From: Brevibacterium sp. W7.2
Lineage (GTDB): Bacteria; Actinomycetota; Actinomycetes; Actinomycetales; Brevibacteriaceae
Reading direction: 5' to 3'
DNA: 64,000 nucleotides
Assembly: GCF_018137945.1 (NCBI RefSeq)
Contig: NZ_CP073089.1
Coordinates: forward strand, 1,674,001 to 1,738,000
The stretch's first letter is position 1. Each line of letters opens with the position of its first letter. Below are positions 27,611 through 32,863 of this stretch, piece after piece. The position numbers and the translations under genes are program-made. Under the pieces are notes generated by a model, which was given only the letters and a program-made list of their open reading frames with translations, made no database searches and was not told the DNA's origin.

Positions 27611-29095
27611 TTACGCGAGGAACTGGAGCCAGAGGCCGATGGCGAGGGTGTTGAGGCCGACGATGAGGAACGCCCGGCTGAGCACCCACGACCCGTCCCG
27701 AGCATCGGCGGCCCCGGCGCCGGAGAGCTGGACGGCCATCGCGACCCGCGGCGGAGCGGCGAGCGCCGCCAGCGATCCCGCGGCGTTGCCTGCGGCGACG
27801 GCGGTCAGCGGCCCCGCTGCCGTTCCCTCACCGGCGACGGCGAGGGTGCTCGCGAACATCGCGTTGCTGCCCGTGTTCGACCCGGTGAGCACGGCGCCGA
27901 TCGTCGACAGCCACGGAGCGAGCACGAGGAGCCCCGTGGGCAGCAGGTCCCCGAACGCCGTGCTCATCCCCGAGGTCGTCATCACCCAGCCCATGAGCAT
28001 GAACGCCGCCGTCGCCGCCCCGATCGGCACCCATGCGCGCACCGCGCGGACGATGACCGGGCGCAGCGGCGGGGGAGATGACGCACCGTCGCTGCGCTCA
28101 TCCGTCGATTCGTCGACCCTGGGACTATCCGTCGATCCGGCACCCCTCTGCCCATTCTTCGCCCCGCGGGTCCGCGAGAGCGCAGCGACGAGGCAGGCGA
28201 CGGCCAGCCAGAACGGGGGAGAGGCGAGACTCTCCATGAGCGGAGACGGGAACACGGCGAGAAGCTCCCGCGCGGCGAGGATGCCGAGGGTGAGAACGCC
28301 GTAGGGCAGGACCGCGCGCCCGAGCGCCGCGGTGACTGCGGCGAAGCGGGCGCGGACCGCCAGGGGCACGCCGAGGCCGACGATGACGACGAGGGACCCG
28401 ATGATGCCGGCCGGCGCCATGCCGAGAAGACGGTTGGCGAGGAGGATTCCGCCCCACAGCAGACCGGCGGCACCGATCATCCCGAGTGCGCTGCCGAGGC
28501 GGGGACGCATGAGGACGAGAACCGAGCAGAGGACCACGGCCACCGGGATCGCGTTCACCCAGGCCGTCGACAGACCGAGCGCATCGACGTCGAAGCCGGC
28601 GAGCGCCGCCGCCACCGTCGTGCCCGGTCCGAGCGCACCCCACGGGACCGCGACGAGACCGAGGAGCCCGAGGAGCGCCGAATGCCGCAGCGAACAGCCG
28701 AGATGCCGGAGGATCGGCACACCGATCGTCACGCCGATGCCGAAGCCCGTGACGGATTCGGCGAAGGGGACGAGGCCGAAGACGACGAGGGCGACGCCGA
28801 GGGACCGGCTGGGCACCATCGACTCGACACTCGCGGAGATCGTCCGCATCGCGCCCGTGGCCTCGAGGATCCCGGCGAGCATCATCCCGAAGAGGAGGAT
28901 GAGCACCACCTCGGCGATGAGGGGGAAGTAGTCGCCGGCGGCCTGGGTGATGACGGGGAGGGGAGTGGGGAAGGCGAGGACCGCACAGAGGCCGGCACCG
29001 GCGAGTCCGGCCACCGCGGAGACCCACGTCGGCGCGCGGAAGGCGAGGAGCGCGACGGCGAGGAGAATGGGGACGAACGCGAGGAGACCGGTCAT
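27611..29095 (-). CDS. L-lactate permease family transporter (LctP)
   Basis: 494-residue inner-membrane carrier with about 12 hydrophobic helices. VPFAESVTGFGIGVTIGVPIL and STIGAVLTGSNTGSNAMF are the LctP-family signatures. A hydrophilic, Ser/Asp-rich cytoplasmic loop lies near residues 315-345. The family imports lactate or glycolate with protons. The start ATG 29095 is preferred; a GTG 6 bases upstream is in frame, and neither has a good ribosome site. Divergent from the XRE-cupin regulator, which is the likely controller. Confidence 0.88.
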   Translation of the reverse strand: MTGLLAFVPILLAVALLAFRAPTWVSAVAGLAGAGLCAVLAFPTPLPVITQAAGDYFPLIAEVVLILLFGMMLAGILEATGAMRTISASVESMVPSRSLGVALVVFGLVPFAESVTGFGIGVTIGVPILRHLGCSLRHSALLGLLGLVAVPWGALGPGTTVAAALAGFDVDALGLSTAWVNAIPVAVVLCSVLVLMRPRLGSALGMIGAAGLLWGGILLANRLLGMAPAGIIGSLVVIVGLGVPLAVRARFAAVTAALGRAVLPYGVLTLGILAARELLAVFPSPLMESLASPPFWLAVACLVAALSRTRGAKNGQRGAGSTDSPRVDESTDERSDGASSPPPLRPVIVRAVRAWVPIGAATAAFMLMGWVMTTSGMSTAFGDLLPTGLLVLAPWLSTIGAVLTGSNTGSNAMFASTLAVAGEGTAAGPLTAVAAGNAAGSLAALAAPPRVAMAVQLSGAGAADARDGSWVLSRAFLIVGLNTLAIGLWLQFLA

Positions 29096-29149
29096 AATCA
29101 CTTTTAATGGATTGAGATCTACTATCTGAGATTACATTAGGATGTCATC

Positions 29150-29698
29150 ATGGCGAAGTCAGAGGATCCCGGGGCGCGGGTGTTCGGGGCGCGCATCCGG
29201 GCTCGCCGCAAATACAGCAACCTCACCCTCAACGAGCTCGCGATCCGCGCCGGCATCTCCCGCGCCGCACTGTCGAAGATCGAACGCGGTGAGCAGGACA
29301 CCTCGGTGTCCAACGCCATGGGGCTCTCCCGCGCGCTCGGCGTCGACGTCGGCGAGCTCCTCGCCGAACCCGAGGTGCTCGTCACCCCGGCCGATGCGAT
29401 CGTCCCGCACGCGACGTACGGTCCCGGCACCTGGCGCCGCGACCTGCCCTCGCCGAGTGAGAACATCGAGGTCATCCACTACTCGCTCGAACCCCGCAGC
29501 GAGACCTCGCCGTTCGCCGCCCACCGCTCGGGATCCCGGGAGACCTTCTTCGTCCTCGCCGGCACCGTCGAGATCGTCACGATCGACCGCCGCACGATCC
29601 TGCGCGCCGGCGACTGCGCACAGGCCCCTGGCGATGTGCCCCACCAGCTCGCCAACCCCAGCGACCGGTCGGCAGAGCTCATGCTCATCATCACCTGA
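29150..29698 (+). CDS. XRE-family regulator with C-terminal cupin domain
   Basis: 182 residues. The helix-turn-helix at about 13-67 (LTLNELAIRAGISRAALSKIERGEQDTS) is followed by a cupin barrel (about 105-180: RETFFVLAGTVEIV, LRAGDCAQAPGDVPHQLAN). Such two-domain regulators sense a small ligand in the cupin and commonly control an adjacent transporter or catabolic gene. The 54-bp divergent region to the permease contains repeated GAGAT/ATCT elements (AGAT 29115-29118, ATCT 29124-29127) that could be the operator. Ligand unknown; lactate or a related acid is a guess from context. Confidence 0.88.
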   Translation: MAKSEDPGARVFGARIRARRKYSNLTLNELAIRAGISRAALSKIERGEQDTSVSNAMGLSRALGVDVGELLAEPEVLVTPADAIVPHATYGPGTWRRDLPSPSENIEVIHYSLEPRSETSPFAAHRSGSRETFFVLAGTVEIVTIDRRTILRAGDCAQAPGDVPHQLANPSDRSAELMLIIT

Positions 29699-29768
29699 GC
29701 CGGGTCCTCAGTCGCACCGAGTCTTCACCGCAGCTGTCGGCCGGGACCGGTCGACCGCCTCGGCGACC

Positions 29769-29913
29769 TTGACGCACCGGAGGCGACTCGGGCATCCTTG
29801 TGAGGTCCCACAGTCGAGTGAAGGCAGCGCCTGAGAATGAAGTGACACCTCATTTCCGCACCCGCGGGTGATTCGGACCCGCACCGCACCGCGTGCACGA
29901 AATGAGATCACTG
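29769..29913 (+). promoter_or_regulatory. promoter and attenuator-like leader of the ABC-F gene
   Basis: TTGACG (29769-29774), 18 bp, CATCCT (29793-29798), then a leader of about 110 bases. AGTGA/TCATTTC (29841-29845, 29850-29856) can pair with GAAATGA/TCACT (29899-29905, 29908-29912), ending two bases before the ATG. Inside, palindrome CACCCG-CGGGTG (29859-29870) competes with GCGGGT/ACCCGC (29864-29869, 29877-29882). Competing stems plus a small reading frame are the usual form of translation-dependent attenuators of antibiotic-response genes. Confidence 0.5.
29842..29871 (+). CDS. possible leader peptide of the ABC-F gene
   Basis: Nine-codon frame VTPHFRTRG, GTG at 29842 and TGA at 29869-29871, lying across the first halves of the leader stems. 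A two-codon ATG-AAG-TGA frame overlaps it at 29837-29845. Translation through either would open the long stem. There is no independent proof that either is translated. Confidence 0.3.
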   Translation: MTPHFRTRG

Positions 29914-31593
29914 ATGCCCTCTGCCATCACCCTGTCCGGACTCGGATACCGCCTCGGCGACGATACCGAGATCCTCACCCACCTCACCGCCACGATCCCA
30001 CTGGGACTCACCGGCCTCGTCGGTGACAACGGGATCGGCAAATCCACTCTCGCCCGGCTTCTCACCGGCGCGCTCGCCCCCACCACGGGGACCGTCACCG
30101 GTGCCGCCGGCGCCGTCCACATCGACCAGCTGCTGCCGCACACCGACGACCGCGTCGACGCGATCCTCGGCATCGCCGGCATCCGCACGAGCCTGCATCG
30201 CGCGCTGCACGGCGAGGCCGGACCAGCCGACTTCGACATCATCGGGGAGGACTGGGACATCGAGGAGCGGGCCCTGTCCGCCCTCGCCGAGGTGGGGCTC
30301 ACCCTCTCCGCGGACGACCTCGACCGGCAGGCTGCGACGTTCTCCGGCGGGGAGGCGATGCGGATCGGTCTCGCCCGCGCGGCGATGGTCGGGTCCTCAT
30401 GGCTCATCCTCGACGAGCCGAGCAACAACCTCGACGCGGCGGGCCGGGCCCTGCTCACCGAGCTGCTCGCGCGGCGGTCCGGGCCCACCCTCGTCATCTC
30501 CCACGACCGCGAGCTCCTCGACTCGATGACGACGATCGTCGAGATGACCGACCAGCTGCGCGTCTACGGCGGGAACTACACCGCATACGAGGAGATGGTC
30601 GCCGCCGAGGAGGAGGCGAAACAGGCGCGGCTGACCGACGCGAAGAAGGCCCACGCGATCGAGAAGCGCCAGCGCATCGACCTCGAGACCACCCTGGCGC
30701 GTGCCGACCGGAAGGCCGCGAAGGACAAGGCGAGCAAACGCCGACCGAAGATCGTCATGAACGGCCTCACCGACTTCGCGCAGAAGTCGGCGGCCAAACG
30801 GCGCGGGGACAAGGCCGCCGACGAGGCTGCGGCCGCCGCTGCCGTGCAGACCGCGAAGGACGCCCTGCGCCGGGACTCCTCGATCACCCTCCACCTGCCC
30901 GAGACCGAGGTCCATCCGAGCAGGCGCGTCCTCGAGGTGCGCCCGAGCGCTCTCGAGCGGCCGCGGGAGATCGTCGGACCGGAGCGGATTCGGCTCACCG
31001 GGCCCAACGGCGCGGGGAAGTCGACTCTCCTCGCCGCCGTCCGCGGCACCGCGCAGACCGGTGGCAGCGCCGCCGGTCGCGTGGGGAGCGACCACGGAGA
31101 CCGCGGCCGGTTGGGCAGCGGCGGCTCGGGGAGCGGTGGCCTTGTCGACGCGCTCTTCCCCGGCCTCAGTGTGCAGGTGTCCGTGCCGATCGGCCACCTC
31201 GACCAGCAGTACCGCCTGCCCGCCGAGGTCAGCGTCATGGAGGCGGTGCGCCGGCCGAACCCCGGGCTTGAGAAGCACCGCGTCCACGAGGTGCTCGCCG
31301 CCATGGGCCTGCGCGCCGAGCGGACCGCGCAGCTGTGCGGCACGCTCTCGGGTGGGGAGCGCTTCCGTGTCGCGCTGGCCGCGACCCTGCTCTCCGACCC
31401 GGCCCCGCAGCTGCTCATCCTCGACGAACCCGGCAACAACCTCGACGTGTCCTCGCAGCGGGCGCTCACCTCGGCGCTCGAGGGATACGGGGGAGCGATG
31501 CTCGTCGTCACCCACGACGACCGCCTCGCCGCCGAACTCCGCCTCGACGCCGTCTGGGACGTGCGGGACCTGCGCGGGGAGGACGACCGGTGA
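29914..31593 (+). CDS. ABC-F family ATPase (ribosome-associated)
   Basis: 559 residues with two ABC domains and no membrane part. Walker A GDNGIGKST and GPNGAGKST, signatures FSGGEAMRIGLARA and LSGGERFRVALAA, Walker B WLILDEPSNNLD and LLILDEPGNNLD. A charged, Lys/Arg/Ala-rich interdomain linker of about 100 residues would reach into the ribosome. ABC-F proteins rescue stalled or antibiotic-bound ribosomes; whether this one confers resistance cannot be read from sequence. A Gly/Ser-rich insertion (about residues 385-410) sits in the second domain. ATG 29914 is preferred; GTG 29893 and ATG 29902 are in frame but inside the leader stem. Confidence 0.88.
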   Translation: MPSAITLSGLGYRLGDDTEILTHLTATIPLGLTGLVGDNGIGKSTLARLLTGALAPTTGTVTGAAGAVHIDQLLPHTDDRVDAILGIAGIRTSLHRALHGEAGPADFDIIGEDWDIEERALSALAEVGLTLSADDLDRQAATFSGGEAMRIGLARAAMVGSSWLILDEPSNNLDAAGRALLTELLARRSGPTLVISHDRELLDSMTTIVEMTDQLRVYGGNYTAYEEMVAAEEEAKQARLTDAKKAHAIEKRQRIDLETTLARADRKAAKDKASKRRPKIVMNGLTDFAQKSAAKRRGDKAADEAAAAAAVQTAKDALRRDSSITLHLPETEVHPSRRVLEVRPSALERPREIVGPERIRLTGPNGAGKSTLLAAVRGTAQTGGSAAGRVGSDHGDRGRLGSGGSGSGGLVDALFPGLSVQVSVPIGHLDQQYRLPAEVSVMEAVRRPNPGLEKHRVHEVLAAMGLRAERTAQLCGTLSGGERFRVALAATLLSDPAPQLLILDEPGNNLDVSSQRALTSALEGYGGAMLVVTHDDRLAAELRLDAVWDVRDLRGEDDR

Positions 31594-31681
31594 CCAGGGA
31601 ATATGCCGCACCACCTCGGTGTTGCGGGTCTGTGAGCAAGGGTACGATGCTCGATTTGGCAGGCTTTGGGATAATGGCATG

Positions 31682-32863
31682 GTGAGTGTCATCAGCCCCA
31701 GCCCAGAATCCACCGCCCAGACCGTCAAGCCGCTGCGCATCGGTCCCATCGAGCTGTCCTCCCCGGTCGTGCTCGCACCGATGGCGGGGATCACGAACAC
31801 CGCGTTCCGGCGGCTGTGCCGCGAGTACGGGGCAGGGCTCTACGTCACCGAGATGGTCACCTCCCGCGCGCTCGTCGAGCGCAGCCCCAAGAGCATGCGC
31901 ATCATCCACCACGAGCCGTACGAGACTCCGCGCTCCGTGCAGCTCTACGGCGTCGACCCGGTGACGATCGGGCAGGCCGTGCGGATGCTCGTCGACGAGG
32001 ACCGCGCCGACCACATCGACCTCAACTTCGGCTGCCCGGTCCCCAAGGTCACCCGCAAGGGCGGCGGCTCGGCCCTGCCGTGGAAGAAGGACCTCTTCGA
32101 AGCGATCGTCACGACCGCCGTCGAGGAGGCCGACCGCGGCGGCATCCCGCTGACGGTGAAGATGCGCAAGGGCATCGACGCCGACCACCACACCTACCTC
32201 GACGCCGGGGAGACCGCGCGCAACGCCGGGGTCGCCGCGATCGCGCTCCACGGGCGCACGACTGCCGACCTCTACTCCGGGACCGCGGACTGGGACTCGA
32301 TCGCCCGACTCAAGGACCACCTCGGCGACACCGTTCCCGTGCTCGGCAACGGCGATATCTTCTCCGCCGAGGATGCGCTCGAGATGATGCGCACGACCGG
32401 CTGCGACGGGGTCGTCATCGGCCGCGGATGCCAGGGCCGGCCGTGGCTGTTCGGCGATCTTGCGAACGCTCTCAACGGCAGTGCCGATCGTCATCGTCCC
32501 GGACTCGCCGAGGTGGCCCGTGCGGTCCGTCTCCACGGCGAATACCTCGTCGACTACTACGGCGAGGAGTTCTACGGGGTGCGCGACCTGCGCAAGCACA
32601 TCGCGTGGTACTTCAAGGGCTACCCTGTCGGCGGCGACCTGCGCAGCCGGCTGGCCATGGTCTCCTCACTCGCCGAACTCGACGCACTGCTCGCCGAACT
32701 CGACGACGCCCCCTACCCGGGCGAGGCCGCCGAGGGCTCGCGCGGGCGGACCACCCGCCCCAAGCGCCCCCACCTGCCCGAGGGCTGGCTCGACTCCCGC
32801 GTCTTCGACGAGAGCGGCTCCGCCGACCTCGCCGAGGCCGAACTCGACGTCTCGGGAGGATGA
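31682..32863 (+). CDS. dus: tRNA-dihydrouridine synthase (DusB-like)
   Basis: FMN-dependent reduction of uridines in the tRNA D-loop. 393 residues: a TIM barrel beginning LSSPVVLAPMAGITN, the catalytic Cys in NFGCPVPKVTRKGGG, KMRKG and GNGDIFSAEDA for FMN binding, and a helical tRNA-binding C-terminus. GTG 31682 begins 6 bases after GATAAT (31670-31675), a leaderless layout; the ATG one codon earlier is the conventional alternative. The gene lies 88 bases after the ABC-F gene and its stop abuts dgt. Confidence 0.94.
   Translation: MSVISPSPESTAQTVKPLRIGPIELSSPVVLAPMAGITNTAFRRLCREYGAGLYVTEMVTSRALVERSPKSMRIIHHEPYETPRSVQLYGVDPVTIGQAVRMLVDEDRADHIDLNFGCPVPKVTRKGGGSALPWKKDLFEAIVTTAVEEADRGGIPLTVKMRKGIDADHHTYLDAGETARNAGVAAIALHGRTTADLYSGTADWDSIARLKDHLGDTVPVLGNGDIFSAEDALEMMRTTGCDGVVIGRGCQGRPWLFGDLANALNGSADRHRPGLAEVARAVRLHGEYLVDYYGEEFYGVRDLRKHIAWYFKGYPVGGDLRSRLAMVSSLAELDALLAELDDAPYPGEAAEGSRGRTTRPKRPHLPEGWLDSRVFDESGSADLAEAELDVSGG

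Follow-up and report, generated by a model that had tools for sequence, protein, structure and literature searches.

What controls the ABC-F ATPase gene that starts at position 29914 of the Brevibacterium DNA analyzed here, and does the stretch in front of it respond to antibiotics? The DNA, which we call the window, is a stretch of 64,000 nucleotides from a Brevibacterium chromosome assembled as one 3.86 Mb contig (G000). Its nearest named relative is Brevibacterium sp. XM4083, whose ABC-F protein is 91% identical. The initial annotation of the window recognized, as we do, that about 110 bases of leader separate the promoter from the ABC-F ATG, and read this leader as an attenuator at which a drug-stalled ribosome frees the gene. 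Our analysis of sequences and predicted folds strongly supports an attenuator of this kind with stalling on a tiny upstream open reading frame (uORF), through 26–36 orthologous leaders, structures spelled in other letters in distant relatives, and folds constrained by a ribosome. The annotation had left open whether the stems and uORF would prove unconserved in orthologs; we found the core of the leader to be conserved across the genus. The features of the locus are as follows.

29150-29698, directly upstream of the leader: XRE-cupin regulator gene
29769-29798, + strand: promoter, with -35 TTGACG (29769-29774), an 18-base spacer and -10 CATCCT (29793-29798)
29820-29827, + strand: GAAGG, weak Shine-Dalgarno-like site of the two-codon frame, from its anti-SD duplex
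29837-29845, + strand: two-codon regulatory uORF ATG-AAG-TGA (fMet-Lys-stop), conserved in 34 distinct leaders
29849-29861, + strand: 5' arm of the sequestering stem, CTCATTTC (29849-29856), with extension GCAC (29858-29861)
29864-29882, + strand: internal hairpin GCGGGT-GATTCGG-ACCCGC, conserved
29886-29896, + strand: small second hairpin GCAC-CGC-GTGC, an alternative to the arm extension, from predicted folds
29899-29907, + strand: 3' arm GAAATGAGA, with the ABC-F ribosome-binding site
29914-31593, + strand: ABC-F ATPase gene, 559 amino acids, from an NCBIfam match and a tree

After the promoter the order is thus GAAGG, ATG-AAG-TGA, CTCATTTC, the hairpin at 29864-29882, GAAATGAGA, six bases and the ABC-F ATG.

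The best NCBIfam model for the protein is ribo_prot_ABC_F (NF000355), with a score of 272 bits that lies under the curated cut-off of 380. In a phylogenetic tree the protein groups with actinobacterial homologs that carry TiaA-type leaders, and five other ABC loci of its own genome fall apart from them with support of 1.0. Homologs L068-L085 bear tiaAL-like leaders of the form M(L/V)GDD(D)ISG; this frame, which occurs in front of homologs from Mycobacterium and Streptomyces, agrees with MVGDDDISG, the leader peptide described for tiaA (PMC12421871). By sequence the protein is probably of the antibiotic-resistance type, ARE5/TiaA-like, in a tree that has no characterized ARE5 sequence among its members.

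The leader of the window and those of 25 named Brevibacterium records (26 in all) align end to end. From 25 of these 26 leaders we built a covariance model, which found one genuine match each in 36 of 57 Brevibacterium genomes. All of these matches extend to the ABC-F ATG, and two additional weak ones are the antisense of the same locus. Outside the genus the model gave nothing convincing in a sample of 396 Micrococcales genomes; a 26.9-bit match in another family (G201) precedes an unrelated gene and was set aside as chance. There was no Rfam match at gathering score within the window. On these sequence matches, the leader is one that belongs to the ABC-F gene in Brevibacterium.

Transcription is predicted to start at about 29804-29806, some 30 bases before the two-codon frame. 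The promoter had been described as good; by consensus it is weak (TTGACG, 18 nt, CATCCT), and a promoter scan did not pick it up. Across 31 orthologs TTGAC is invariant, as are the A and the final T of the -10 element, and we regard the promoter as probably real but weak. The -10 element lacks its first T in all orthologs, which have C or G instead, and CTCGG immediately 5' of it is strongly conserved, a combination that suggests a weak promoter or an activator site. Just 3' of the predicted transcription start, at 29807-29816, the orthologs keep CAT(T/C)(T/C)CCG, which repeats CTCATTTCCG of the stem arm. The XRE-cupin neighborhood also seems to be conserved, as a similar gene end (LMLII stop) precedes many orthologous leaders.

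The ATG-AAG-TGA frame, which the annotation had pointed out, is real and conserved. In 34 distinct leaders it reads GTG or ATG, then an invariant AAG, then TGA, TAA or TAG (spelled GTGAAGTGA in 17, GTGAAGTAA in 11, GTGAAGTAG in four and ATGAAGTGA in two). We inferred changes in the nine columns of the frame on the ABC-F protein tree and found six, every one from start to start or from stop to stop: one at the first base (G to A), two at the second base of the stop and three at its third base. On the same tree, many neighboring spacer columns have three to eleven changes each. The frame is thus kept at the level of codons, with the start and all three stops exchanged, and is predicted to be a translated uORF. 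The anti-SD duplex at its ribosome-binding site has a mean energy of -5.9 kcal/mol across the 34 leaders; in the window the site is weak and lies 12 bases from the uORF's ATG. From the uORF stop to the ABC-F start is about 64–70 bases in most leaders. The overlapping nonapeptide VTPHFRTRG (GTG ACA CCT..., 29842-29871), also offered as a candidate, fared differently: GTA replaces its start codon GTG in 15 of 31 orthologs. We rejected it as the sensing frame, together with a palindromic stem at 29859-29870, since both are unconserved.

Downstream of the uORF, CTCATTTC (29849-29856) pairs with GAAATGAG (29899-29906), and GCAC (29858-29861) pairs with GTGC (29893-29896). The two arms form a perfect 8-base inverted repeat, 42 bases apart in the window. 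GAAATGAG contains the ABC-F ribosome-binding site, so that in the modeled closed stem this site is hidden; the site reads GAGA in the window and GAGG in most orthologs, and it stands exactly 6 bases from the ATG in 26 of 26 leaders. The five central pairs of the stem are invariant. The long-range stem was said to close two bases short of the ATG, which holds for the window; its last four pairs (GTGA/TCAC) are largely special to the window's species group, and the conserved core is CTCATTTC/GAAATGAG. Between the arms, the annotation had proposed mutually exclusive stems. One of these, the hairpin at 29864-29882 (GCGGGT/ACCCGC), is conserved, with 98.7% of cells paired and a sixth pair that is U-A or U-G; the other, the palindrome at 29859-29870 (CACCCGCGGGTG), is not kept in orthologs. 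The second hairpin (29886-29896) appears in the predicted folds of several clades, and other clades have different letters.

In the close clade the predicted structure pairs 93.9% of cells, compared to 31–47% when the partners are slid. Double-change covariation is zero in this clade (by RNAalifold and by pair counts), where the pairs hardly vary, so the case for structure rests on the slid-partner controls, on the distant leaders and on the ribosome-constraint test described below. The energy of folding the whole leader is unremarkable against shuffles (z -1.1), and we give it no weight as evidence. An additional long-range clamp is suggestive only, on sequence grounds: GGCAG at 29823-29827 can also pair with ABC-F codons at 29921-29925, and when the ribosome-binding region of the uORF is paired with ABC-F codons 1–6, partners from one species group pair more strongly than partners from different groups (407 of 20,000 permutations, 6 groups). 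The candidate clamp has different complementary letters in five of the six groups, and one large clade shows it only weakly.

The first part of the 5' arm would lie beneath a ribosome placed at the uORF start. To model this, we kept the footprint of the ribosome single-stranded, counting 18 bases on the 5' side of the uORF start and 15 on its 3' side. The mean cost of opening the ABC-F start was 16.6 kcal/mol in the free RNA and 6.0 with the ribosome on the uORF. The drop is thus 10.6, against 1.4 (sd 1.9) when the intervening bases are shuffled; 1 of 1360 shuffles matched it, and the shuffle counts are not independent of each other because the leaders are related. Taken singly, with 150 shuffles per sequence, the drop was reached by none for the window, none for G033, one for Brevibacterium album and two for G054; for G034, a distant relative, the switch was not significant (12 of 150). 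The probability that the ABC-F site is unpaired rises from 0.02 in the free RNA to 0.31 with the ribosome on the uORF, so part of the site stays paired in the predicted fold even then. In these models, the ABC-F site is sequestered by a stem whose 5' arm sits under the uORF ribosome.

Distant Brevibacterium ABC-F proteins (about 47% identity) have the same leader plan in other letters. G054 has the frame GTG-GAG-TGA (ME*) with arms GACACCTC/GAGGTGTC, and G033 has GTG-AAC-TGA (MN*) with arms CCTCGA/TCGAGG. In both, the frame keeps its length of two codons and its position and the second codon is changed, and the complementary arms indicate that pairing is kept despite the changed letters. The arms of relatives lie farther apart and differ in sequence. 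In B. album and G034 the frame has eight codons instead (MKSRLVLA and MKSRLATA). Other Brevibacterium ABC-F homologs (L151-L155 and L187, 40–47% identity) each have a short-uORF leader of their own (for example, MKMRA or MKSTITHP), which makes it appear that this gene family is generally under leader control with fast-evolving frames. Among upstream regions of Microbacterium ABC-F genes (L192-L221, 30 loci, and L222-L241, 20 loci), a large clade has an invariant TTG-ATC-TGA (MI*) behind GGAAG. Other Microbacterium lineages have frames of 8–13 codons (such as MKLIDATAL and MEIIDATAQ) that begin at the corresponding place, and a small indel appears to separate the two forms.

We consider it likely that the leader works by translational attenuation, in which a drug-stalled ribosome at or right after the uORF start frees the ABC-F site. 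In a drug-free cell, a ribosome would translate start-Lys-stop almost instantly and depart; the vacated RNA would close the CTCATTTC/GAAATGAG stem plus the two inner hairpins, burying the ABC-F site, and little ABC-F protein would be made. A drug at the peptidyl transferase center would hold the ribosome at the start codon or the next codon, where its footprint would cover the 5' arm, so that the stem could not form and ABC-F would be translated. With a peptide of no more than two residues, the frame would sense arrest at initiation, at the first peptide bond or at termination, and not a nascent-chain motif. The freedom of the second codon in G054 and G033 favors a stall on the start codon or directly after it over specificity for lysine or for a peptide. 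Macrolides act on longer nascent chains, so a two-residue frame should not sense them; the expected inducers are lincosamides, pleuromutilins and streptogramin A, and not macrolides. We hold it evenly balanced whether a broader proposition is true, namely that a peptide-free sensor of start, one codon and stop reads only arrest at initiation, first bond or termination, thereby selecting peptidyl transferase drugs over tunnel-binding macrolides, and that two-codon sensors of this type have two or more separate origins among the ABC-F genes of actinobacteria (MK*, ME* and MN* in Brevibacterium, MI* in Microbacterium).

Other explanations of the leader have to be weighed against this one. Attenuation could instead act on transcription, which would end within the leader either intrinsically or through Rho, as described for lmrC, vgaA, msrD and in part vmlR. 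ABC-F genes in the papers we consulted are usually controlled in this way (PMC12421871, PMC8546547), and the internal G+C hairpin is invariant; against it, no T run follows any hairpin, a terminator scan of 29000-32500 returned no terminator-like site, and the conserved arm itself carries the ribosome-binding site, which makes transcription attenuation unlikely here, although a Rho-dependent form would escape a search by sequence. If the signal were instead specific to an amino acid or nascent peptide, so that the lysine codon reported a shortage of lysyl-tRNA or a Met-Lys motif was sensed, the constancy of AAG in 34 of 34 close leaders would be explained. A G+C-rich genome would, however, be expected to use AAG for lysine, a chain of two residues barely enters the tunnel, and GAG (G054), AAC (G033) and ATC (Microbacterium) stand at the same place. 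We judge such specificity improbable, and rejected lysine-starvation sensing in particular because the second codon differs in distant relatives.

Two further possibilities dispense with drug sensing or with RNA structure. Two-codon regulatory minigenes exist (PMC8708949), and the frame could act as one, through re-initiation or mRNA protection as in axe-txe or LEE1; yet the stop-to-start distance in most leaders is several times the 15 bases of axe-txe, with a sequestering stem in between, the modeled switch is far above shuffles, and homologous ABC-F genes use drug-stalled uORFs, all of which leaves a minigene effect very improbable. Finally, a perfect 8-base inverted repeat with a regulator gene directly upstream might be an operator at which a transcription factor, possibly the XRE-cupin protein, binds the DNA. 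An operator would hardly be expected to have arms 42 bases apart here and wider, with different sequence, in relatives, one of them always holding a ribosome-binding site 6 bases from the ATG, or to adjoin a two-codon frame conserved by codon logic, and this idea has very little chance of being right.

Translational attenuation by a stalled ribosome has several known relatives. In erm-type attenuators (ermC and its relatives), a ribosome stalled on the leader frame frees a sequestered ribosome-binding site. The erm leaders sense macrolides via a specific nascent peptide of several residues, whereas the Brevibacterium frame has two residues, with the second codon free in distant relatives. Closer parallels are found at ABC-F genes. 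The cplR leader of Clostridioides difficile (uORF MR[I/M]) likewise has a very short uORF and a sequestered main-gene ribosome-binding site, and there translational attenuation suffices for repression, but it has three sense codons and an intrinsic terminator where Brevibacterium has two codons and no terminator (PMC10201436). In Bacillus subtilis vmlR (uORF MIN), a tiny uORF similarly senses blockers of early elongation and a hairpin sequesters the Shine-Dalgarno sequence of an ABC-F gene; its frame has three sense codons, however, and control is dominated by a terminator, an anti-terminator and RNA polymerase pausing (PMC9226507). The Streptomyces ARE5 leaders are5scL1 (MLV) and tiaAL (MVGDDDISG) serve genes of the same broad actinobacterial ABC-F group, but have 3 and 9 codons, a predicted terminator/anti-terminator and no sequence similarity to the leaders described here (PMC12421871). 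In S. coelicolor, ribosomes stall at the start codon of ARE5 uORFs in response to lincosamides, pleuromutilin and streptogramin A, and not erythromycin (PMC12421871). The regulatory frames of axe-txe mg2 (ATG-ACT-TAA) and LEE1 do have two sense codons, but they are not antibiotic sensors, no sequestering stem is described for them, and their main gene is much closer (PMC8708949).

The uORFs named in the cited ABC-F papers (MIN, MR[I/M], MK[L/Q], MAGN and MLV) have at least three sense codons (PMC10201436, PMC9226507, PMC12421871), and the literature we searched, itself incomplete in coverage, contained no description of a two-codon antibiotic-sensing uORF. Our sequence comparisons and fold models would add Brevibacterium to the bacteria with inducible ABC-F control, here apparently through sequestration of the ribosome-binding site alone. 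The leader thus offers a minimal system for asking what a drug-stalled ribosome requires of a leader frame. If a start, one free codon and a stop are sufficient, then sensing of the lincosamide/pleuromutilin type could operate without sequence-specific peptide arrest. The two-codon frame also bears on a puzzle about vmlR and cplR, whose three-codon frames are conserved in sequence even though the drugs show little context specificity (PMC10201436).

Two minor observations concern the genomes. A WhiB search showed that two WhiB-domain proteins are encoded in the genome that contains the window. At L156 / L030 (G014), the leader is gone, along with roughly a quarter of the ABC-F gene at its 5' end, and the promoter region is joined straight to the coding sequence at a shared CTCGGCGA; from its sequence, the ABC-F gene there looks like a remnant.
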